Below are positions 1,190 to 13,279 of a stretch of 13,289 bases of DNA, in pieces. Source of the stretch: an uncultured Flavobacteriales bacterium (GTDB lineage Bacteria; Bacteroidota; Bacteroidia; Flavobacteriales; Vicingaceae). A program made the position numbers and the translations under genes. Numbering within the stretch: position 1 is the stretch's first letter; the number at the start of each line of letters is the position of its first letter. The notes beneath the pieces were generated by a model. The model ran no database searches, had not been told where the DNA came from, and saw nothing but the letters and a program-made list of their open reading frames with translations. Location: positions 1 through 13,289 of the forward strand of contig CAMPHX010000009.1 of NCBI GenBank assembly GCA_946886085.1, written 5' to 3'.

Positions 1190-1261
1190 ATGAAATTTAT
1201 TAAGATATGTATGGTTGTTTTTACTCTAGTAATTTCAACCATATCCTTTAGCTTATTTGCT
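1190..1261 (+). other. Sec signal peptide of the giant surface protein
   Basis: The protein starts MKFIK, followed by an uninterrupted hydrophobic core (residues 6-23) and a small-residue site at Ala24/Ala25. Cleavage is likely after residue 24 or 25, giving a mature end at (A)DFYWVG. There is no lipobox cysteine at the site, so the protein is not a lipoprotein. T9SS substrates need such a Sec signal to reach the periplasm first. Confidence 0.88.
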
Positions 1262-4200
1262 GCTGATTTTTATTGGGTAGGTAATTCAGGTAGTTGGAAT
1301 AATCCATCTCATTGGTCGTTAAGCAGTGGCGGGCATGGAGGGGTAGGAGTTCCCTCAACAAGTGATAATGTTATTTTTGATAATTTATCAATTACACAAC
1401 CTTCAGAAATAGTTATTAATCAACAAGCCAATTGCGCTTCGTTTCAGGTGCAAACTTCGTATAAGATTGTTTTTTCATCTAATCATGTTGCTGAATTAAG
1501 TATAAATGGAGATTTTCAGGTTAATGAAAATTACGAAAATCAATTTTATGGAAAAACTATTTTTATATCTAATCAATCTGAAACACAAATAAATACAAAT
1601 AGAGCTACATTTTTAGGTGATATTGAATTCAATGCTTCTTCTAAATTTAATTTAATTAGTGATTTAATTTTAACGGATTCAAACTTTATTTACTTTAAAA
1701 AAGGAGAGTTATTAATTGATAATGTTACTGTTTATTCTGGTGGTATTGATGTTAGAAGTAATAGTACAAAGAAAATAACAACTAGAAATGCGGTTGTTTA
1801 TAATCATCAAAAAGCAAGATTTGATGCCAATAATTTTTCTTTAAGTAATGATAAGTCTGATATTATTATTTTTAGACAAGCTCAAGATGTAAATACAGGA
1901 AACCTTGATAAAAATAAACTTACATTTAGTAATGGTTCTAAAATGACTAATACATGTGGAGCAGTACCGTTTACAATAACCGTATCAGTTCTTACAAATT
2001 ATAATGGTTTTGGAGTTTCTTGTCAGGGAGTTTGTGATGCTGTTGTTTATGTTGATATCACTGGAGGGGTGGGGCCTTTTACTGTTTCATGGTCAACAGG
2101 AACTCCTTCACCTGGTTTAGGAGACACTATTTTTAATGTTTGTCAAGGAAATGTTGGTGTTCAGGTTACTGATATGGGTCAAAACCCTCCATTTGGAACA
2201 CAATGTACTGATCAGGTAAATGTTACTAATCCAATTGCTTTAGCAATTAATTTAATTGGAATTGTACAACCAACTTGTAATGGTGATTGTGATGGAGCAA
2301 TTGGAACAAACGTAGCTTTTGGAGTTGCTCCTTATTCAATTTCTTGGGTTCAAGTACCTGATACTACACAAACAATTACCAATATATGTGCCGGTGGTTA
2401 CGATATTAATGTTGTTGATGCTAATGGATGTACAGCAACTCGAAATTTTGTATTAACTGAGCCAGCTCCTTTAACTTTTCAGCTAGATAGTACAAATATT
2501 AATTGCTTTGGAACATGTACAGGAACTGCAACAGTATCTAATGAGGCAGGAGCAAACGGCCCTCCATATTCTTATTCTTGGTTACCTAATGGAGAAATAA
2601 CTTCAGGGATTATTAATTTATGCCCTGGAGTATATACCGTTACTGTTTCTGATGGAGATGGTTGTTCTACTACAGATAGTGTAAATATTACTATTCCAAA
2701 CCAAATGCAATGGGATACTACAGCTCAAAATGTTAGCTGTGGTGGAGCGTGTGATGGTTCAATTACGGTAAACATTTTAAGTGGAGGAACAGCTCCTTTT
2801 ACTCACAACTGGAGTACAGGAGTAACTAATAATGGATTTTCTTCAACAATTTCAGGATTGTGTGCCGGAACGTATACAGACTCTATAGTTGACGGAAATG
2901 GTTGTGATACAGTCATTACCATAATTATTACAGAACCTGATACCTTATTAACTTCAACAACTTCTTCAGATGTTACTTGTTTCAGTGATTGTGATGGTTA
3001 TGCGGTAACTACAACTACAGGAGGAACTCCTGTTTATACTTATACCTGGTCGTCAATTCCTGTAGGATTGACATTTAGTGGACAAGGAACAGATTCTATT
3101 TTTAATTTATGTCCGGGACAATATGTTGTGAGTATAGTTGATGCTAATAATTGTTCAACCTCAGATACTATAACCATAACAGAACCTGCATTGTTGGTTG
3201 CTAACCCTAGTGGCACTGACATGTCTTGTTCAGGTGTTTGTGATGGTAGTGTAACTGCTAACCCAACAGGAGGAACCATGCCTTATTCTTATGTTTGGAC
3301 TGGTCCGGGAGGCCCTTATAATACACAATCTGTTAATAGTTTGTGTGCAGGAACTTATGTGGTAACTGTTACAGATTCTAATAATTGTGTAGCGATAGAC
3401 AGTGTGATAGTAACTTCTCCACAACCGCTCGCTATTACTGTTAATAAAACAGATATGTCTTGTAATGGAGTTTGTGATGGAACAGCTACAGCAACAATAA
3501 CAGGAGGAACTACTCCTTTTACTATCGTTTGGACAAGTGTTCCTGCAGGTCAGGTTGCTGCAGGTCAAGGAACAACTTCTATTTCTGCTCTTTGTGCAGG
3601 AACGTATACTATAAATGTTACAGATTCTAATGGATGTACGGCAAACGCTTCTGTTGTAATAAATGAACCAACAAGCATAAATGCTAACTTAACACAAACA
3701 GAAGTTACTTGTAATGGAGCTTGTGATGCATCTGCAACTGTAACTCCATCTGGTGGTATTGCACCATACTCTGTTTCGTGGAATGGATTTGCTTTTGTCC
3801 CTGTAGTAGGAGGATTTAATACTATAAATGGATTATGTGCAGGTAATCATGCTGTTATTGTTAGAGATGCAAACAATTGTACTACAACAATTAATTTTAC
3901 TATTACTGAGCCAGCTGCATTAACAACAACCACAACAGGAACTGACTTATCTTGTAATGGAATTTGTAATGGTACTGCAACAACCACTCCTTCAGGAGGA
4001 AGTGGAACATATACTTTTACTTGGACAACAATACCTGCGGGACTTACTTTTACCGGCCAAGGAACAAATGCTATAACCAATCTTTGTGCAGGAACATATA
4101 TTGTTAATATTATGGATACGTCAAATTGTTCAGTTAACGATACTATTGTGATAAATGAACCTCCAGCTATTAATCCGAATATTCAGTTTTCTAATATGAG

Positions 4201-7200
4201 TTGTAATGGAATCAATGATGGTTCTGCAGTAGCAGTACCTACAGGTGGAAATCCGGCTTATAACATAAGTTGGGTATTATTACCAGGCACTCCAATTGCC
4301 GGAAACCCTATAAATGGGTTAGGAGCAGGACAGTATGAAGTGACTATTGTTGATGCTAATGGTTGTGAAGTTAGAGATACTATTACCATTACTAATCCTC
4401 CGGTTTTAAATCTTAATGTTACAGCTACAAATGCAAGTTGCCAAGCAATTTGTGATGGTTCTGCTGTAGCAGTAGCTTCAGGGGGAACTCCTGGATATTC
4501 ATATCAGTGGGATGCTAATGCAGGAAATCAAACTACAGACTCTGCAACAAATCTTTGTGCAGGAACATACAATGTTACAGTAACTGATACTAATGGGTGT
4601 ACGGCTTCCGGTAATGTTACTATAGCTCCATCAATTACTATTAATATCACAACCACAGCAATCACTATTAGTTGCAATGGTGTGTGTGATGGAAGTGCAA
4701 CAGCTAACCCATCAGGCGGAACATTGCCTTATTCATACAGTTGGTCTAATGGAGATACTACTCAAACTGCTACAGGTCTTTGTCCGGGGATGGTTTTTGT
4801 TACAGTAACTGATGCAAATGGTTGTACTGCAGTTGATTCGGTAAATATGCCTGTTGATCCATCTGTTTTAGTACCAAATGGCGTTATTGATCAGCAAATC
4901 ACTTGTGCAGGAAATTGCGATGGAATGGTGTCCTCAGCTCCAACAGGAGGAACTCCACCTTATTCAATTTCATGGTCAGTACCTGATACGAATAATGTTT
5001 GTCCTGGTATTGCTGTTGTAACAGTTACAGACAACAATGGTTGTATTCAATCTGATACGTTAACGTTAGTAGCACCTGATACCATAACTCCTAATCCTAC
5101 CATTACTAATGTCTTATGTAGTGGTAATAATACAGGAAGTATTTGTGTTGCTCCAACAGGAGGGACACCTGGATACACTTTTGTTTGGTCAGGAGGTTTA
5201 GGCACAAATGCATGTATTAATAATGTGCCAGCTGGAACATATTCTGTAACTATTACTGATTCAAGTGGATGTTCAAGGGTTGACACATTTACTATAACAT
5301 CACCTTCAGCATTAACATCTAACCCAATACAAACTAATGTAAGTTGTTTTGGAGCTAATGATGGTTCAGCAGGCGTAACTGTTTCTGGAGGTGTTTCTCC
5401 ATATACTTATACTTGGTCAACAACTGATACTACATCATCTATAACCAATTTAGCACCAGGAAATTATTCTGTAACGGTTATGGATTCTAATGGATGTACA
5501 ACGGTTCAGAATTTTATTATAACTGAGCCGAATCAATTGTTAGCTAATGCTACAGGAACTAATGTGGCTTGTGGTGGAGCTCCATGTACAGGAAGTGTTA
5601 CTGCTAGTCCATCTGGAGGTGTGCCAGGGTTTACTTATCTATGGTCAACAAGTACAAATCCTAACTTGGGAACAACACCATCTTTAACCAATTTATGTCC
5701 TGATACCTATATAGTAACAGTTACTGATACTAATGGATGTATAGCTGTGGATTCATTTACGGTGACAGCTCCAACAACACTTACAGTTGCTTTAACTTCT
5801 ACTGACCCAACCTGTAATGGTCTTTCTAACGGAAGTGCTACTGCAACACCAAGTGGTGGAACCGCTCCTTATACTTATTCATGGGTAGGAACATGTGCTC
5901 CTTCTCCTAATAATACTGCTACCGTTACTGGTTTGTGTGCAGGAAATTATACGGTAACAGTTACCGATAGCTTAGGATGTAGTTTTGTAGGTAACGTAAC
6001 CTTAACCGATCCTGCCCTAATTGCTGCAAACCCTGTGGTTACAAATGCTAACTGTGGTGTTTGTGATGGAGTTATTGCTACTTTCCCAACAGGTGGTGAT
6101 GGAGTTTATTCTCATTCTTGGTCAACAGGAGCTACAAGCTCTACCATAACTAATCTTTGTGCAGGATTTTATACTGATACCATTACCGATAATAGCGGTT
6201 GTGTGGGCATCTTTACAATAGCTGTAAGTAATCCAACAGGCCCATCAGGGATTACTTCAACTGTTAATAATGCGACTTGTTTTGGTGCTTGTGATGGATC
6301 GTTGAATGCTTTACCGATTGGAGGCACAGCGCCATTTTCATATGCTTGGACTTCTATTCCTCCAGGAGGACCTTATGCTAACGACAGTACATTAACAGGC
6401 TTATGTGCAGGTATATATAATTTAATATTAACAGACTCTAACAATTGTATATTGGCAGCAAGCGTTGTTGTTGGTCAGGCAGATAGTATTACTGAAAACT
6501 TAAATGTTTCAGATGCAACTTGTTTAGGAACTTGTGATGGGATTGCTTCTGTAGCACCATCAGGAGGAACAGCACCGTATACTTATTTATGGAGTAATGG
6601 AGCAACCACTTCTTCAACTTCAGGTTTATGTGTTGGAGCAGCAAGTGTAACTATTACTGATGCAAATGGGTGTAGCAAAGTAGTGAATTTTAATATTACT
6701 AGTCCATCTCAACTAACAGCAAGTACTTCTACTACTGATGCTACTTGTAATGGAAATTGTGACGGAACTGCAACAGCAACACCAAATGGGGGGACCGCTC
6801 CATATACGTATTCGTGGGATGATGCTTTAAATCAAACTACACAAACAGCGACAGGATTGTGTGCTGGTTCTTATAATGTACAGGTTATTGATGTGAATGG
6901 ATGTACAACAGTTGAAACAGTTGTTATTAACGAACCAGCTGTTATTACACCAAATTTAACAACTACCGATGCTACTTGCGGCAATGCTGATGGTACTGCC
7001 GGAGTTGCTCCTACAGGTGGAACACCGGGATATACTTATCTTTGGGATTTTGGACCTATCGTACCAAATGTCACAGGTTTATTAGCAGGTACCTACTCTG
7101 TTACTATCACTGATAATAATGGATGTAGTGTGGTTGTTCCCGTAACAATTAGCAATGCAAACGGGCCAAGTATTTCTTTAAATACAACGAATGTAACTTG

Positions 7201-10200
7201 TAGTGGTGTTTGTGATGGTTCAGCTTCGGTTGCTGTAACTTCAGGAGTGCCACCTTATACTTATTTATGGAGTAATGGTGCAACCACAACAAGTATTAAC
7301 GGACTTTGTGCAGGAAATTATACTGTGCAAGTAACCGATGGTAATGGATGTGTAACTGCTCAAGCTTTCACCATTTCAGATAATTCACCTATTAGTGTGG
7401 CAGTTTCTACGATAGATGCTACTTGTAATGGTGCTTGTGATGGTTCAGCAATTGCAACTCCAAATGGAGGGACAGCACCTTATACATATAGCTGGAGTAC
7501 AGGACATACTATTAATGCTGTAGCAGGATTGTGTGCCGGAAATTATATAGTAACAGTAATTGATGCTTTAGGTTGTAGTGTAGTTCAGAATATAAGCATT
7601 AATTCATCAAGTAATTTAACTGTTAATGTTTCAGGAAGTAATGCTAGTTGTAACGGAGGAAGCAATGGAACAGCAACAGCCACACCAAACGGAGGAACAG
7701 CTCCATATACGTATTCGTGGAATACTGGAGCTACAACAGCTTCTATTTCAGGATTAACAGCAGGAACTTATACGGTAACAGTTACAGATGCTAATGGTTG
7801 CTCAACTACTGGTAACGTAACTATTGGAGAAGGTTCTAACATTACTGCAACTATCAACACAACCGATGCAACTTGTGGTGTTTGTGATGGAATAGCTACA
7901 GTAACTGCTCCGGCAGGTGGTGCAGGTGGTCCATATACTTATTCGTGGTTACCTGGTGGTCAAACAACGGCCTCAATTAATGGATTATGCCCTGGTGCTT
8001 ACACTGTTGAGGTTACAGATAATAACGGATGTTCAAATACATTTAATGTATTAATTAGCAATCCAAATGGACCTTCTTTAAGCATGAGCGCTGATAGTGT
8101 TACTTGTTTTGGTAATTGTGATGGAATTGCTAATGTTACAGTAACTTCAGGAGCGGCACCATTCATTTATCAATGGGATGATCCAAGCTTATCTAATTTA
8201 GATAGTGCAGTAAACTTATGCGCAGGATTATATAATGTTGTAGTGCAAGATGCAAATGGATGTATAAGTGTAGATAGTATAACTGTTGGAACGCCACAAC
8301 AAATTTTAGCAAATATTACATCAACCAATCCAACATGTAATGGTGTGTGTGATGGTACAGCTACAGCGAACCCAACCGGAGGAATAGGCACCTATTCTTA
8401 TGCATGGAGTAATGGGCAGCTTACACCAACAGCTACTAACTTATGTGCAGGAACACATACAATTGTTATAACAGATCAAAATGGATGTTCAATAACTGAT
8501 AGTGTAACATTAACCGAACCAACAAGTATATTAATTACTGCAAGTTCAACTAATCCAACATGTAATGGTGATTGCGATGCAACAGCTTTAGCAACCGCTT
8601 CAGGAGGAACTGCTCCATATTCTTACTCATGGAATACATCGCCTGTACAAAACAACTCATTAGCTACTGCTTTATGTGCAGGGACTTATACTGTTACAGT
8701 TACGGATGCAAATGGATGTATAGATTCAGCTGTGGTTAATGTGGTAGATAATCCAATTTTAACTACTTCAACAAATACGACACCACCAACATGTAATGGA
8801 AATTGTGATGGAACTGCTACTACAACTCCAAGCGGAGGGGCAGCCCCATATAGTTATTCTTGGAGTAACGGACAAACTTCAGCGACAGCTATTAATTTAT
8901 GTGCAGGAACATATACGGTAACTATTACAGATGGAAATAATTGTACAACCACAGATACAGTGGTTATTAATAATGCACCTGTTGTTAATGATAGTACTGT
9001 AGTTACTAACCCAACTTGTGGCGTTTGTAACGGAGCAGTTACTTCTACTCCTGTTGGTGGTGTTGGTCCTTATGATTATGTATGGACAGCTGTTACAGGG
9101 TCAAATCCATCACTTCCTGCTACAACCACCAATGCGACAAGTTCTACCGTTAATGGATTATGTGCTGGAACTATTCAACTTCAATTAACGGACTTAGGAA
9201 CTGGTTGTGTTTCTACTCATACAATAATTATAAATAGTGATGTAACGGCTACAGTTAATATGACTTCTAATGATGAAACATGTGCAAATGCTTGTAATGG
9301 AACTGCTTTAGCATCAGTTAGTGGAGGTACTACACCTTATACGTTTAGTTGGTCACCTTCGGGAGGTAATGATTCTTTAGCAACCAACCTTTGTGCAGGA
9401 TTTTATACAGTAACTATTACTGATGCTAATGGTTGTATTTTAACAGATACAGTTACCATTAATACTAATAATTTGAATTTAAGTATTAGCAATATTGTTC
9501 CGGAATCATGTTTTGGAGCTTGTGATGGAATGGCTACTGTGGCAGTAGGAGCTGGAACTCCCCCATTTACTTATCAATGGAATGTTACCAACCCTTTACA
9601 AACAACACCAACTGCTACTAATTTATGTGCAGGGATTTATACTGCAGTAGTAACTGATAGTTTAAATTGTGTAGATTCTATTTCTGCTACGATAAATAGT
9701 CCAACTCAATTAGTCCCTTCAACTGCTGTAACAACACCAATTAGTTGTAATGGAATTTGTGATGGAGCAATAACAGCAAATCCAAGTGGAGGTTCTGCTC
9801 CATATACCTACTTATGGGATGATCCTTTAGCTCAAACTACTCAAACAGCGACAGGGTTATGTGCAGGAACTTATGTAGTGGTTGTTACTGATGCTAACGG
9901 TTGTTCTGGAAACGACACCATCACACTTAATGAACCTTCTGCGGTGTTAGCTAATGAAGTAATAGTTACTCCGGCTTGTAATGTTTGTGATGGTTCTATC
10001 ACCTTAAATCCAACTGGTGGAATTGGACCATTTACCTACTTATGGACAACTCCAACAAGCCCTCCTAATCCAACAACAGCAATGATTACGAATCTTTGTG
10101 CTGGAGCTTATTCGGTTGATATAACTGATCAAGGAACAGGTTGTGTAACTACTTTTAATTATGCGTTAAGTAATACTACTGCTCCGGATCCTAATACAAC

Positions 10201-11611
10201 TGTTACAGATATTTCTTGTAATGGTGTTTGTGATGGACAAATTGTTGCTAATCCAACTGGCGGAACTGCTCCTTATAGTATTTCATTTAATCCGGGTGGA
10301 ACTGCTAATCCTCAAACTAATCTTTGTGGTGGAGTTTACACCGTAACGGTTACCGATTCCGTTGGATGTATTGGTGTAGTGATTGATACTGTTGATGCTC
10401 CTGATGCTATGCTTACAAATATTAATTCAACTAATATTACTTGTAATGGTGCAAATGATGGTACAGCAACTGTAAATGTTATTGGTGGAGTTCCAACTTA
10501 TACTTTTTCTTGGTCACCATCATCTCAAACTACTCAAACAGCAACTGGTTTAAGTGCAGGAACACATATTGTTACAATTACTGATGATAATGGATGTAGT
10601 GTGGTTGATAGTGTTATCATTACTGAATCTTCAGCTATTTCTATTATAACATCAACAACAGATGTTACTTGTTCTTCGGTTTGTGATGGTGCTGCTACAG
10701 TTACTGTAAGCGGTGGAGCAGGAGGATACACTTTCCAATGGAATGGAGATTTAACTCCCGGACAAACAAATACAGCATCAAATTTATGTTTTGGAGCTAA
10801 TGGTCTTGTTGTAACTGACCAAAATGGATGTACAGATTCGTTTACTGTAAATATTGGAGCTATTGATACTGTATTGGCTTTTGCCGGAAATGATACTAAT
10901 GTTTGTTTTGGTTCTCCAATAACATTAATAGGAAATGGCATTGGAAATATAGCTTCAGTAGAATGGTTTGAGTTGCCTAGCATGACTTCAATAGTCACTA
11001 CTGATACCATAACTGTTACTCCAACATCAGCAGGGCAAGTTTGTTATGTCTATACAGTATATGGGACAAATGCAGGCTGTTTTGATATGGATACGGTTTG
11101 TGTAACCATAGATCCATTACCTGTTGCAAATGCAGGTCCTGATGTTACTATTTTTGAAGAAGGTTCTACTCAACTAAATGGTAGTGGAGGTGTGACATAT
11201 ACTTGGACACCTAGTTATGGTTTAAGTGATACAACTATCGCTAATCCGGTTGCTAATCCAATGCAAACTACTACTTATTATTTAACCGTAACATCTCCTG
11301 CAGGGTGTGTTTCTACTGATAGTGTAATTGTAACTGTTTTACCTAAAATTGTTTTCCCTGATGGTATTACACCGAATGGTGATGGAGTAAATGATGTTTG
11401 GATAATCGATTTTATAGAAGAATTCCCAAATAATGTTGTTGAAATTTACAACCGTTGGGGAGAATTATTATTTCATGCAGATGGGTATAAACAAGATTGG
11501 GATGGAAGCTATAATGGTAAACCATTACCAATAGGAACTTATTATTTTGTAATAGAGTTAAACGATGGAAAAACTAAACCTTATACAGGTCCGATAACCA
11601 TTTTAAGGTAA
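1190..11611 (+). CDS. giant SprB-repeat surface protein, type IX secretion type B substrate
   Basis: This 3473-residue protein is predicted to be exported by Sec, then by T9SS, and displayed on the cell surface. In order it has a signal peptide (1 to about 24), a beta-rich head opening with YWVGNSGSWNNPSHW (28-42), 38 SprB-type repeats (276-3226), two Ig/PKD-like domains (3227-3311 and 3312-3385) and a CHU_C sorting domain (3386-3473). F. johnsoniae SprB, a mobile gliding adhesin of about 6500 residues, shares the repeats, the C-terminal domain and the neighbouring sprF. The function here is therefore inferred to be adhesion or gliding; orthology to SprB itself is not shown, so no symbol is given. 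The single frame is intact across 10.4 kb. The ATG at 1190 is followed directly by a good signal peptide, which supports this start. The repeats are strongly acidic, with only six Lys/Arg in 2951 residues, and rich in cysteine. A SprF-like gene follows after 8 bases, implying co-transcription. Confidence 0.93.
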   Translation: MKFIKICMVVFTLVISTISFSLFAADFYWVGNSGSWNNPSHWSLSSGGHGGVGVPSTSDNVIFDNLSITQPSEIVINQQANCASFQVQTSYKIVFSSNHVAELSINGDFQVNENYENQFYGKTIFISNQSETQINTNRATFLGDIEFNASSKFNLISDLILTDSNFIYFKKGELLIDNVTVYSGGIDVRSNSTKKITTRNAVVYNHQKARFDANNFSLSNDKSDIIIFRQAQDVNTGNLDKNKLTFSNGSKMTNTCGAVPFTITVSVLTNYNGFGVSCQGVCDAVVYVDITGGVGPFTVSWSTGTPSPGLGDTIFNVCQGNVGVQVTDMGQNPPFGTQCTDQVNVTNPIALAINLIGIVQPTCNGDCDGAIGTNVAFGVAPYSISWVQVPDTTQTITNICAGGYDINVVDANGCTATRNFVLTEPAPLTFQLDSTNINCFGTCTGTATVSNEAGANGPPYSYSWLPNGEITSGIINLCPGVYTVTVSDGDGCSTTDSVNITIPNQMQWDTTAQNVSCGGACDGSITVNILSGGTAPFTHNWSTGVTNNGFSSTISGLCAGTYTDSIVDGNGCDTVITIIITEPDTLLTSTTSSDVTCFSDCDGYAVTTTTGGTPVYTYTWSSIPVGLTFSGQGTDSIFNLCPGQYVVSIVDANNCSTSDTITITEPALLVANPSGTDMSCSGVCDGSVTANPTGGTMPYSYVWTGPGGPYNTQSVNSLCAGTYVVTVTDSNNCVAIDSVIVTSPQPLAITVNKTDMSCNGVCDGTATATITGGTTPFTIVWTSVPAGQVAAGQGTTSISALCAGTYTINVTDSNGCTANASVVINEPTSINANLTQTEVTCNGACDASATVTPSGGIAPYSVSWNGFAFVPVVGGFNTINGLCAGNHAVIVRDANNCTTTINFTITEPAALTTTTTGTDLSCNGICNGTATTTPSGGSGTYTFTWTTIPAGLTFTGQGTNAITNLCAGTYIVNIMDTSNCSVNDTIVINEPPAINPNIQFSNMSCNGINDGSAVAVPTGGNPAYNISWVLLPGTPIAGNPINGLGAGQYEVTIVDANGCEVRDTITITNPPVLNLNVTATNASCQAICDGSAVAVASGGTPGYSYQWDANAGNQTTDSATNLCAGTYNVTVTDTNGCTASGNVTIAPSITINITTTAITISCNGVCDGSATANPSGGTLPYSYSWSNGDTTQTATGLCPGMVFVTVTDANGCTAVDSVNMPVDPSVLVPNGVIDQQITCAGNCDGMVSSAPTGGTPPYSISWSVPDTNNVCPGIAVVTVTDNNGCIQSDTLTLVAPDTITPNPTITNVLCSGNNTGSICVAPTGGTPGYTFVWSGGLGTNACINNVPAGTYSVTITDSSGCSRVDTFTITSPSALTSNPIQTNVSCFGANDGSAGVTVSGGVSPYTYTWSTTDTTSSITNLAPGNYSVTVMDSNGCTTVQNFIITEPNQLLANATGTNVACGGAPCTGSVTASPSGGVPGFTYLWSTSTNPNLGTTPSLTNLCPDTYIVTVTDTNGCIAVDSFTVTAPTTLTVALTSTDPTCNGLSNGSATATPSGGTAPYTYSWVGTCAPSPNNTATVTGLCAGNYTVTVTDSLGCSFVGNVTLTDPALIAANPVVTNANCGVCDGVIATFPTGGDGVYSHSWSTGATSSTITNLCAGFYTDTITDNSGCVGIFTIAVSNPTGPSGITSTVNNATCFGACDGSLNALPIGGTAPFSYAWTSIPPGGPYANDSTLTGLCAGIYNLILTDSNNCILAASVVVGQADSITENLNVSDATCLGTCDGIASVAPSGGTAPYTYLWSNGATTSSTSGLCVGAASVTITDANGCSKVVNFNITSPSQLTASTSTTDATCNGNCDGTATATPNGGTAPYTYSWDDALNQTTQTATGLCAGSYNVQVIDVNGCTTVETVVINEPAVITPNLTTTDATCGNADGTAGVAPTGGTPGYTYLWDFGPIVPNVTGLLAGTYSVTITDNNGCSVVVPVTISNANGPSISLNTTNVTCSGVCDGSASVAVTSGVPPYTYLWSNGATTTSINGLCAGNYTVQVTDGNGCVTAQAFTISDNSPISVAVSTIDATCNGACDGSAIATPNGGTAPYTYSWSTGHTINAVAGLCAGNYIVTVIDALGCSVVQNISINSSSNLTVNVSGSNASCNGGSNGTATATPNGGTAPYTYSWNTGATTASISGLTAGTYTVTVTDANGCSTTGNVTIGEGSNITATINTTDATCGVCDGIATVTAPAGGAGGPYTYSWLPGGQTTASINGLCPGAYTVEVTDNNGCSNTFNVLISNPNGPSLSMSADSVTCFGNCDGIANVTVTSGAAPFIYQWDDPSLSNLDSAVNLCAGLYNVVVQDANGCISVDSITVGTPQQILANITSTNPTCNGVCDGTATANPTGGIGTYSYAWSNGQLTPTATNLCAGTHTIVITDQNGCSITDSVTLTEPTSILITASSTNPTCNGDCDATALATASGGTAPYSYSWNTSPVQNNSLATALCAGTYTVTVTDANGCIDSAVVNVVDNPILTTSTNTTPPTCNGNCDGTATTTPSGGAAPYSYSWSNGQTSATAINLCAGTYTVTITDGNNCTTTDTVVINNAPVVNDSTVVTNPTCGVCNGAVTSTPVGGVGPYDYVWTAVTGSNPSLPATTTNATSSTVNGLCAGTIQLQLTDLGTGCVSTHTIIINSDVTATVNMTSNDETCANACNGTALASVSGGTTPYTFSWSPSGGNDSLATNLCAGFYTVTITDANGCILTDTVTINTNNLNLSISNIVPESCFGACDGMATVAVGAGTPPFTYQWNVTNPLQTTPTATNLCAGIYTAVVTDSLNCVDSISATINSPTQLVPSTAVTTPISCNGICDGAITANPSGGSAPYTYLWDDPLAQTTQTATGLCAGTYVVVVTDANGCSGNDTITLNEPSAVLANEVIVTPACNVCDGSITLNPTGGIGPFTYLWTTPTSPPNPTTAMITNLCAGAYSVDITDQGTGCVTTFNYALSNTTAPDPNTTVTDISCNGVCDGQIVANPTGGTAPYSISFNPGGTANPQTNLCGGVYTVTVTDSVGCIGVVIDTVDAPDAMLTNINSTNITCNGANDGTATVNVIGGVPTYTFSWSPSSQTTQTATGLSAGTHIVTITDDNGCSVVDSVIITESSAISIITSTTDVTCSSVCDGAATVTVSGGAGGYTFQWNGDLTPGQTNTASNLCFGANGLVVTDQNGCTDSFTVNIGAIDTVLAFAGNDTNVCFGSPITLIGNGIGNIASVEWFELPSMTSIVTTDTITVTPTSAGQVCYVYTVYGTNAGCFDMDTVCVTIDPLPVANAGPDVTIFEEGSTQLNGSGGVTYTWTPSYGLSDTTIANPVANPMQTTTYYLTVTSPAGCVSTDSVIVTVLPKIVFPDGITPNGDGVNDVWIIDFIEEFPNNVVEIYNRWGELLFHADGYKQDWDGSYNGKPLPIGTYYFVIELNDGKTKPYTGPITILR
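1262..2014 (+). other. N-terminal non-repeat beta-rich head domain
   Basis: Residues 25-275 precede the repeats. They open with DFYWVGNSGSWNNPSHWS and reach DNVIFD at 59-64, a module I recognise from the N-termini of other large Bacteroidota T9SS proteins. The rest alternates short hydrophobic beta segments with Asn/Ser-rich turns, in the style of a beta-helix or stacked-strand fold. Unlike the repeats it has normal Lys and Arg content (for example KKITTR near 195) and almost no cysteine. Being farthest from the C-terminal anchor, it would sit at the filament tip, a reasonable place for ligand binding. The fold and role are inference. Confidence 0.6.
2015..10867 (+). repeat. array of 38 SprB-type repeats
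   Basis: The 38 repeats start at residues 276, 361, 437, 515, 595, 678, 756, 839, 920, 1003, 1082, 1160, 1237, 1308, 1384, 1459, 1540, 1620, 1695, 1776, 1851, 1928, 2002, 2077, 2152, 2227, 2304, 2381, 2456, 2533, 2608, 2696, 2772, 2851, 2928, 3008, 3083 and 3159. Lengths run from 68 to 88 residues, mean about 78. The typical pattern is TCNGxCDGxATxxPxGGTxPYTYxWSNG, a variable loop, then LCAGTYTVTVTDxNGC and a closing strand with TEP. The tryptophan is present in all but the repeat at 3008 (Phe). The first cysteine and the NGC cysteine are present in all 38; the CDG and LCAG cysteines occur together in 31. The repeats probably form a chain of small disulfide-stapled beta-sandwiches. Confidence 0.93.
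10868..11344 (+). other. two Ig/PKD-like domains between repeats and sorting domain
   Basis: Residues 3227-3311 and 3312-3385 form two beta-sandwich-like domains. The first begins TVLAFAGNDTNVCFGSPITL and carries CYVYTVYGTNAGC and DTVCVTI. The second begins PVANAGPDVTIFEEGSTQL and continues GGVTYTWTPSYGLSDTTIA, TTTYYLTVTSPAGC and DSVIVTVLP. The second is the Ig-like module that very often sits directly before CHU_C domains in Bacteroidota. They probably act as a spacer between the repeat chain and the anchored C-terminus. Like the end of the repeat array, they have no Lys or Arg. Confidence 0.75.
11345..11608 (+). other. CHU_C / type B T9SS C-terminal sorting domain
   Basis: Residues 3386-3473 carry the hallmarks of the gliding-motility-associated C-terminal domain: VFPDGITPNGDGVND (3388-3402), VEIYNRWGELLF (3417-3428), DWDGSYNGKPLPIGTYYF (3436-3453) and a final ITILR. 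This type B signal directs translocation across the outer membrane by T9SS. In F. johnsoniae, type B substrates depend on a cognate SprF-like protein, in line with the next gene. The domain is full length and ends at the stop codon. Confidence 0.95.
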
Positions 11612-11619
11612 GTTATAAG

Positions 11620-12555
11620 ATGAAATTGTATATGAAGAATTATATAGTAATATTGGTTTTGATATTGTCAGGAAGTGCGGTATTTGCTCAGCAATTACCA
11701 CATTTTAGTCAATATTATTTGAATGACTTTTTGATTAATCCTGCTGTAGCAGGTACTAGAGATTATTTTGAAGGAAAATCAAGTCATCGTTATCAATGGG
11801 AAGGAATTACCGATGCTCCTCGTACATATACGTTAAGTGTAAACGGACCAATGAAAAATGAAAAGATGGGGTTGGGAGGATATTTATTTACCGATATGGT
11901 AGGACCAACAAGAAGAACAGGTTTTAATTTGGCTTACTCTTATCATGTTAGATTAAATGAAACCTTAAAATTATCATTTGGACTTTCTGCCGGATTATTA
12001 CAATTTATGATAGATGGTTCTAAAGTTACGTTAAGAGATGAGGGAGATGTTATTTTAACCAATGGAGTACAAAAAGTATTGGTGCCCGATGCAGGTTTTG
12101 GAACTTACTTATATCATGAGAAATATTATGTGGGATTTTCTGCTCCACAATTATTAAACAGTAGAGTAAAGTTTTTTAATGAAGGAGATAATCCAAATGG
12201 AACCTTACCGGCTCATTTCTTTTTAACAGGGGGGTATAAGTTTGATATAACGGATGATTTTATGTTAGAGCCCTCCTTTTTTGTAAAGTATATCTCTCCT
12301 GCTCCTGTAATGTATGATGGTAGCTTAAGAATAATGTATAAACAGAAAGTTTGGTTGGCAGGTACCTATCGTCATCGTGATGCGGTTGCTGTTTCGGTGG
12401 GTTATTTGATTTACGATTATTTTACTGTAGCTTATGCGTATGATTTTACCACCACCAATTTAAAAAATTATAACAATGGCTCACATGAATTAATGATAGG
12501 CATTAGGTTTCATAAAAATGAACCCAAAACGACATCAGCTCCTTCAATAAATTAA
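11620..12555 (+). CDS. PorP/SprF-family type IX secretion outer-membrane protein
   Basis: This 311-residue outer-membrane beta-barrel protein belongs to the PorP/SprF family. It has a signal peptide ending VFA at residue 23. The family hallmark QQLPHFSQYYLNDFLINPA follows (24-42), with AGT at 44-46. The rest is alternating strands and turns, such as KMGLGGYLFTDMVGPTRRTGFNLAYSY, ending in a barrel-closing LMIGIRFHKN (291-300). Members work with T9SS to secrete or anchor type B substrates, and SprF of F. johnsoniae is needed for SprB surface display. The gene starts 8 bases after the giant gene's stop, so the two are almost certainly one operon and a cognate pair. A second in-frame ATG at 11632 gives MKNYIVILVLIL, an equally good signal peptide; the sequence does not decide between them. 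Many paralogues exist in such genomes, so no symbol is given. Confidence 0.92.
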   Translation: MKLYMKNYIVILVLILSGSAVFAQQLPHFSQYYLNDFLINPAVAGTRDYFEGKSSHRYQWEGITDAPRTYTLSVNGPMKNEKMGLGGYLFTDMVGPTRRTGFNLAYSYHVRLNETLKLSFGLSAGLLQFMIDGSKVTLRDEGDVILTNGVQKVLVPDAGFGTYLYHEKYYVGFSAPQLLNSRVKFFNEGDNPNGTLPAHFFLTGGYKFDITDDFMLEPSFFVKYISPAPVMYDGSLRIMYKQKVWLAGTYRHRDAVAVSVGYLIYDYFTVAYAYDFTTTNLKNYNNGSHELMIGIRFHKNEPKTTSAPSIN

Positions 12556-12631: not shown

Positions 12632-13279
12632 TTAGTTACAATTTTTATCTAAAGATGCTTCAATGTTTAATTCAACAACCGACCATAATTTACTAACACC
12701 ATCTTCTCCTTTGTGTAAGTCTTCACAAACTTTGTTTAGTGAAGCAATAGCAGCATCTCCATTCCAGTTGATTAAATCAATTTCTCCGATTAAACTTATT
12801 TTGTTATCATTAACCTTGTAGTCTAGTGTAACTTCTTTTTCAATGTTGTTTAGGGTTAAGTAAAATGTACAAGTTCCGCTTTCATTGTTTCCTTTAGCTG
12901 ATTTTACCTGACCAATAATTAAATCGGTAGCGTCCATTGCACCAAAGAAAGATTCGATAATTTTTTTATCTCTGCCTTCATCTTTAGTAAAAGTACTTTC
13001 GGTCATTATAGTAAAGTTAATTCCATTAAGTACATCGGTTATTTTAGTAGATTTTTCTCCACCTTTAACCATTACCTGATTAAAAGTTCCTCCAACACCC
13101 ACTTTATCAGTTGTTTTAAAGGCTGTCCAGCTTACAGTTGCAGAAGAGGATTTAGTGTATTCATAAAAACAGATAGGTTCACTACTATTGACTGTGTTAT
13201 TTTTGTCTTTATCGCTCTCAGCACAAGAAATTAGAAACAAAGAAGTAATAATTACTGTAGGAAAAATAATTTTTTTCAT
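12632..13279 (-). CDS. YceI-like family lipoprotein
   Basis: This 215-residue protein has a lipoprotein signal peptide with lipobox LISC, so Cys19 would be lipidated and exposed in the periplasm or on the outer membrane. After an Asp/Lys/Asn-rich linker, residues about 45-210 resemble the YceI domain: a lipocalin-like beta-barrel that in characterised members binds isoprenoid or other hydrophobic ligands. Supporting segments are VSWTAFKTTDKVGVGGTF (49-66), the RDKKIIESFFGAMD region (103-116), LTLNNIEKEVTLDY (141-154) and SLIGEIDLINW (162-172). The ligand is unknown. The start at 13279 is chosen because MKKIIF leads straight into the signal peptide. Only 10 bases lie upstream in the window, so its promoter is not visible. 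It converges on the SprF-like gene across a shared terminator and is probably functionally separate. Confidence 0.82.
   Translation of the reverse strand: MKKIIFPTVIITSLFLISCAESDKDKNNTVNSSEPICFYEYTKSSSATVSWTAFKTTDKVGVGGTFNQVMVKGGEKSTKITDVLNGINFTIMTESTFTKDEGRDKKIIESFFGAMDATDLIIGQVKSAKGNNESGTCTFYLTLNNIEKEVTLDYKVNDNKISLIGEIDLINWNGDAAIASLNKVCEDLHKGEDGVSKLWSVVELNIEASLDKNCN

Follow-up and report, generated by a model that had tools for sequence, protein, structure and literature searches.

SprB-type proteins are very large, widespread surface proteins of the Bacteroidota. In the portion of PMC12635249 available to us, substrates of the type B T9SS are described as remaining on the cell surface, each bound to a carrier of its own, and in Flavobacterium johnsoniae a Cys-X-Cys motif in the C-terminal tail of the carrier SprF is described as tying it to the gliding track via GldK. 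The SprF-GldK bond reported there also indicates that Bacteroidota envelope proteins do form disulfides. A limited literature search, including the accessible portions of PMC12635249, PMC12618676 and PMC10202324, found nothing on the cysteines or disulfides of SprB repeats.

The window analysed here, a stretch of 13,289 nucleotides, encodes a single protein with 38 SprB repeats in a 3,473-residue open reading frame. Up to four cysteine positions in each repeat are named C1 to C4 in order, and the features of the locus are as follows.

1190..11611, + strand: 3473-aa ORF with signal peptide, N-terminal region, 38 SprB repeats, two Ig-like domains and type B CTD
1955..1957, + strand: Cys256, a putative partner of Cys339 (C4 of the first repeat), with a matching Cys in the related loci L085-L087 and L212
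2015..10867, + strand: 38 tandem SprB repeats with 142 Cys, every repeat even in Cys
10868..11119, + strand: domain 39, Ig_7 (PF19081), with C1 at 3239, C4 at 3297 and extra Cys at 3285 and 3304
11120..11347, + strand: domain 40, PKD-like (PF22352), with C4 at 3373 and without C1; proposed C-terminal chain end
11354..11605, + strand: T9SS type B sorting domain, CHU_C / TIGR04131 (74.9 bits, cut-off 35)
11620..12555, + strand: PorP/SprF carrier protein with a Cys-free C-terminal tail (285.6 bits, cut-off 90.55)

The repeats belong to the SprB family by their total PF13573 score (875.6 bits against a cut-off of 28, in 33 stretches), and the TIGR04131/CHU_C C-terminal domain with an adjacent PorP/SprF gene marks the protein as a type B T9SS substrate. 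The array had been described as a periplasm-crossing filament; this was mistaken, as type B substrates are cell-surface proteins in the part of PMC12635249 at hand. The gliding adhesin SprB would be expected to have an SprF partner with a Cys-X-Cys tail, and the carrier in the window lacks cysteine there; the motif occurred in the last 25 residues of 0/58 distinct PorP-like ORFs of the fetched loci (phmmer E <= 1e-8). Gliding, if it occurs, may use another carrier. The nearest named record among the matches listed is Flavobacteriales bacterium UBA2669 (L105), with 94% identity over the query repeat. A YceI-like protein with an apparent lipoprotein signal lies convergent to the adhesin genes at 12632..13279 on the - strand.

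The cysteine counts given for this array in the preliminary description hold up. C1 and C4 occur in 38 of 38 repeats and C2 together with C3 in 31; the five repeats named as lacking both carry Asn1009, Asn1390, Ala1933, Ser2158 and Asn3089 at C2 and Gly1045, Ala1422, Leu1965, Thr2190 and Ser3122 at C3, as stated, and the estimate of about 142 array cysteines corresponds to exactly 142 in residues 276-3226. These 31 and five repeats make 36, and the remaining two are r14 and r17.

4196..4432, + strand: r10, only C1 and C4
5111..5338, + strand: r14 (residues 1308-1383), second pair moved to Cys1319 and Cys1342
5339..5563, + strand: r15, only C1 and C4
5807..6046, + strand: r17 (residues 1540-1619), second pair Cys1569 with C3 (Cys1583)
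6971..7192, + strand: r22, only C1 and C4
7643..7867, + strand: r25, only C1 and C4
10436..10663, + strand: r37, only C1 and C4

The repeat r14 lacks both C2 and C3, and r17 lacks C2 and keeps C3, yet each has four cysteines. Because both hold the second pair elsewhere, the cysteine count is even in 38/38 repeats, and the rule is stronger than first stated. Taken strictly, r17 has only one of C2 and C3; since its C3 has a possible new partner, the rule is generalised rather than broken. The co-occurrence test within the window gave 31 repeats with both, six with neither, one with C3 only and none with C2 only (Fisher p = 2.5e-6).

Repeats were drawn from the fetched loci of relatives with a profile built from 37 of the 38 window repeats (r1 left out), in which all cysteines were masked against selecting for Cys. 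The preliminary description had proposed a C1-C4 disulfide inside one repeat, and this the relatives contradict. If C1-C4 and C2-C3 were both intradomain, each repeat would be a self-contained four-Cys module; the co-occurrence of C1 and C4 in 2346 of 2389 interior domains is consistent with such a module, per-repeat counts alone fit it, and its C2-C3 part is right. Two cysteines bonded to each other in one repeat should, however, be lost together, and such joint loss is not seen: 28 interior domains lack C1 and all 28 retain their own C4, while 15 lack C4 and all 15 retain their own C1. We therefore regard the self-contained module as very unlikely.

It is in the following domain that the loss of C1 is answered. 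After the 28 C1-less domains, the next C4 is lost in nine cases, from nine different loci, and in the other 19 it is kept together with a junction Cys, defined as a Cys 9-16 residues after the previous C4; these 19 come from four loci (L123, L112, L142 and L166), with 13 recurrences in L123 alone. None of the 28 precedes a domain that keeps C4 while lacking a junction Cys, so all 28 show what an interdomain staple would lead one to expect, namely that absence of C1 in domain k goes with absence of C4 in domain k+1 or with a junction Cys. Among the 2361 domains with C1, the next C4 is present without a junction Cys in 2336, present with one in 14 and absent in 11. The association of C1(k) with C4(k+1) is strong (Fisher p 1.6e-13), while that of C1 with its own C4 is nil (p 1.0). 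In an offset control, C4 was missing in 2/45, 0/47, 3/47, 9/28, 0/27 and 2/26 cases at offsets -2 to +3, respectively. The pairing of C1(k) with C4(k-1), about 25 residues apart, was also considered and is ruled out (0/47).

Inspection by eye refined these counts. Seven of the nine losses of the next C4 fall between two SprB domains, and two (L129, L170) involve PKD-like domains; L106 has two further unusual cysteines. Four of the 11 domains that keep C1 ahead of a missing C4 seem truly unpaired, the next domain being one that looks HYR-like. The rest comprise three near-identical cases (L109) with a second Cys three residues on, one with a junction Cys, two alignment or anchor slips and one with no following domain. 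In 20 new regions picked before looking (431 domains, 27 runs), the rule called a single C1-less interior domain, which keeps its own C4 and has a successor without C4, in agreement with the interdomain model; the set also contained two cases of C1 kept with the next C4 missing; by eye, an anchor slip accounts for one of them, and C1 is truly lacking in the other.

Couplings from mean-field direct coupling analysis, computed over 2527 pairs of adjacent domains, point the same way. Between domains, C1(k)-C4(k+1) ranks 11 of 6084 (z 6.5), while C1-C4 within one domain ranks 1806 and 403. The k,k+2 control is flat (z 0.67) and the k,k+3 control is not clean (z 3.1); this, with C4(k)-C1(k+2) at rank 8 among the k,k+2 couplings, suggests some background from rare-loss columns. 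When cysteines are masked, the couplings place strands A and G parallel; C1 comes to lie next to the final part of G (columns 64-69), some 8-13 alignment columns away from C4, which sits where that strand starts (column 56). Positions at opposite ends of strand G again speak against the self-contained module. On our reading of the couplings, C1 and C4 would sit at opposite poles of their own domain, and C1(k) and C4(k+1) would flank the same junction. At the level of sequence, then, C1 covaries with the C4 of the next repeat and not with its own, and most likely C1(k) bonds C4(k+1), joining the domains covalently.

In a chain of this kind, the opening domain should carry C1 and no C4, and the closing domain C4 and no C1. 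In 21/21 arrays, the final Ig-like domain, just ahead of the sorting domain, carries C4 (Cys3373 in the window) and lacks C1, which is also hard to reconcile with a C1-C4 pair inside each domain, and the penultimate one has C1 at +25 in 21/21; these 21 arrays are orthologs and do not represent 21 independent events. The N-terminal end is less uniform. In 7/21 arrays, a Cys at C4 is missing from the first domain detected; in L224 and L227 the first domain directly follows the signal peptide, and the cysteine totals from there, 158 and 98, are both even. The first repeat in the window does carry C4 (Cys339), and we think it likely from the sequence that Cys256 pairs with it. Cys82 (1433..1435), in the N-terminal region, would have no obvious partner if it does; in L085-L087 and L212, a Cys lies almost equally far from the first-repeat C4. 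Across all runs, C4 is missing in 22/95 first domains against 15/2389 interior ones, and C1 in 11/96 last domains against 28/2389. Run ends thus often retain their cysteines (C1 in 85/96 last domains, C4 in 73/95 first domains), and in many runs the neighbours may be Ig-like domains of other kinds, which the profile leaves uncounted.

An AF2 model of r13-r17 (mean pLDDT 95.1, pTM 0.70) has Ig-like arrays as its best PDB matches and places Cys1319 and Cys1342 in model strands 96-100 and 122-126, which, by analogy with the Ig fold, would be adjacent. With two repeats as the query, phmmer detected no relative in the PDB, while a five-repeat profile did find relatives. The AlphaFold model of r37 to domain 40, based on seven alignment rows (pLDDT 69.7), is too poor for use, with blocks of domains 39-40 mostly at 39-68.

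As to the second pair, C1 and C4 are both present in 1821 units, and of these 495 carry C2 together with C3, 1309 carry neither, 13 have C3 only and four have C2 only; the outcome that would have told against the pair, many homologous repeats with only one of the two, is therefore confined to 17 of 1821. The 13 C3-only units have another Cys at C1+6 (five) or C1+27 (eight, including mutual orthologs). One of the four C2-only units has a Cys at C4-9, and the other three, near-identical copies in L109, have no substitute. C2-C3 is also by far the strongest intradomain coupling (rank 1, score 12.3, the next being 5.0), and its assignment as a putative intradomain staple, as originally proposed, is well supported.

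Where C2 and C3 are not both present, a second pair may be found elsewhere in the domain: in strands B and E (C1+8/9 with C4-19; C1+10 with C4-20), in strands C and F (C1+25 with C4-10; C1+21 with C4-6), in strands F and G (C4-9 with C4+5), at C1+27 with C3, or in a loop at C1+14 with C1+19; four extra cysteines were seen in 17 domains. The sums for C1+4/C4-14, C1+9/C4-19 and C1+10/C4-20 are all -10, which fits one antiparallel ladder. Early cysteine counts placed the domain boundary at C4 (661/672 and 1705/1916 even). As the C4-9/C4+5 pairs straddled C4, the boundary was then moved to C4+12, which later counts use. With that boundary, 2417 of 2731 domains could be counted cleanly, 314 being dropped because C1 or C4 was not called by rule, no domain adjoined upstream or the hit was not full-length; 2310 of the 2417 are even and 107 odd, a looser parity than within the ortholog family described below. 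The odd domains include 51 with a lone Cys at C4-8, in strand F and probably buried, and the 13 L123 junction cases. A real exception to the pair rule is L182 (a Filimonas MAG), where a single extra Cys at C4-8 occurs in 37/45 clean domains.

It could be argued that the cysteines are not oxidised at all, and that the pairs reflect metal binding or the core packing of thiol pairs. Profile matches to VKOR, Thioredoxin_4, DsbB and DSBA were each found in 0/3 near genomes (G001, G003, G005), which is what unoxidised cysteines would predict for DsbA, DsbB and VKOR, and the lone cysteines tolerated at C4-8 count in the same direction. VKOR matches are present in 3/60 relatives, and thioredoxin-family matches do occur. 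Scattered two-Cys ladder sites are typical of cross-strand disulfides, and metal sites usually need 3-4 ligands; the two-Cys sites at many alternative positions in antiparallel-ladder register therefore stand against unoxidised thiols, as does the SprF-GldK disulfide of the Bacteroidota envelope, to judge by the available part of PMC12635249. We consider this account extremely improbable, and retain disulfides as the more plausible fate of both pairs.

Gain and loss of the second pair could be followed directly in orthologous arrays, of which 21, anchored on the last repeat, were tabulated for extra cysteines only. The count of extra cysteines is even in 727/727 domains (r2-r38), bearing out the earlier view that C2 and C3 come and go as a unit; by label, two of the 727 cells (r4 of L222 and L223, there the first domain) lack C1 or C4. 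Parsimony on the PorP tree, with labels differing in loop length only merged, gives at least 43 changes of second-pair state at 19 of 36 repeats (r3-r38), against 47 changes at 20 repeats before merging. The chain-end set also comprises 21 arrays and is partly different, including L224, L227 and L228 in place of L088, L089 and L213; orthologous loci in neither set are L091, L096-L098, L216, L219, L221, L225 and L226 (partial, of other length or unchecked). The r14-type pair, at the sites of Cys1319 and Cys1342, is also found in L085-L088 and L210, and r15, which in the window has only C1 and C4, has a different pair in L210 (C1+21 with C4-6). At r22 the window has no second pair, L088, L211, L213, L215, L217 and L218 have a B-E pair and six arrays have C2-C3; the window and L088 copies of r22 are 80% identical, with two positions that are Cys only in L088. 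Paired gain and loss of these cysteines is thus apparent in the sequences themselves.

An alternative is that cysteine states spread by gene conversion of entire repeats, the pairing being inherited with the repeat rather than selected. The arrays are tandem, and for 3 of 13 switched repeats (r22, r34 and r37, compared with L214) the window copy is clearly closer to another repeat of that array than to its positional ortholog, suggesting that some repeat copying may also occur; a 10249-aa open frame in another genome (G015:C9, 382199-385015 and around), whose SprB repeats have identical scores, suggests recent duplication there. Set against this, no repeat matches better than the positional ortholog in 8 of the 13, and in 2 more that ortholog is within 0.02 identity of the best; at r15, r17 and r22, moreover, the type of pair differs between species. 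Shuffling of whole repeats is thus an unlikely explanation for the pairing.

The second pair had been thought a lineage-specific addition, which its patchy occurrence across the Bacteroidota does not bear out. A scan with r25, a two-Cys repeat, yielded L105-L184 as the best 80 loci; among its 79 listed named-record loci (L106-L184), 75 have countable domains, and C2 with C3 is present in at least 17 of these (172/1220 domains), including Bacteroidales and Aureispira records among the matches listed. With a two-Cys query and only the best 80 loci, the share of four-Cys repeats may be understated. The view that SprB repeats carry mainly C1 and C4 stands for Flavobacterium, where six loci with detected repeats have zero C2+C3 domains (a seventh, L148, has no detected repeat), and fails for those 17 or more loci elsewhere. 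Within the family of the window itself, four-Cys domains range from nearly all (L104, L229) to few (L224).

We suggest, with considerable confidence, that the Ig-like domains of this adhesin form a chain held by disulfides in two layers. In the first, nearly invariant layer, C1 of domain k, at the end of strand A or in the AB loop at the C-terminal pole, would bond C4 of domain k+1, in the FG turn at the N-terminal pole, so that a covalent staple would close every junction, starting at the first repeat and ending at the final PKD-like domain. The second layer would be optional, consisting of one extra intradomain staple, usually C2 (before strand B) with C3 (in the EF loop), sometimes moved to strands B-E, C-F or F-G or to a loop, and occasionally doubled. 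Extra cysteines would rarely be accepted other than in pairs, since an unpaired thiol beside some 140 half-cystines would presumably scramble the chain. The outcome would be a stiff surface rod, resistant to proteolysis and force, secreted by the T9SS and held by its PorP/SprF partner; the formation of the disulfides, the rigidity and the mechanical role are what we infer from these patterns. On a wider scale, we think it probable that SprB/Ig_7 arrays throughout the Bacteroidota are covalent chains, rods of hundreds of kilodaltons in which a C1(k)-C4(k+1) bond would hold almost every domain to its successor, with a backbone doubled by S-S bonds and a second, evolvable layer of intradomain staples whose cysteines arise and shift position almost exclusively in pairs.

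If this is true, a disulfide at each junction would explain the stiffness of long Ig rods under the forces of gliding or adhesion. It would also pose a question for the T9SS, namely whether oxidation of the chain precedes or follows its transit through the translocon, and what carries it out, given that no DsbA, DsbB or VKOR match was found in the three near genomes. The alternative staple positions amount to a natural map of the disulfide sites tolerated in one Ig-like fold, and the ortholog family to a history of substitutions made in pairs, with no single-Cys intermediate to be seen.

In titin and other tandem Ig arrays of eukaryotes, the canonical disulfides are intradomain, and we know of no systematic interdomain staple. 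Another point of comparison is the grappling hook protein GhpA of Aureispira, said to be heptameric. The five-repeat profile matches GhpA (PDB 9FLP, 9FLV, 9FLW, 9FLY) with E 8.9e-40; Ig-like arrays are common, the match is one at the level of the array, and by eye the GhpA domains look more like Ig_7/PKD. With SprB of Flavobacterium (PF13573) the window protein shares the repeat family, the T9SS type B CTD and the adjacent PorP/SprF gene; it differs in that most of its repeats have a second cysteine pair, whereas the six Flavobacterium loci have none, and in that its carrier lacks the Cys-X-Cys tail described for F. johnsoniae SprF in the accessible text of PMC12635249. The SprF-GldK disulfide, as far as it is described there, is likewise a structural disulfide in the Bacteroidota envelope machinery, but it is intermolecular and joins carrier to track, whereas the staples that we propose here would lie within the adhesin chain itself.
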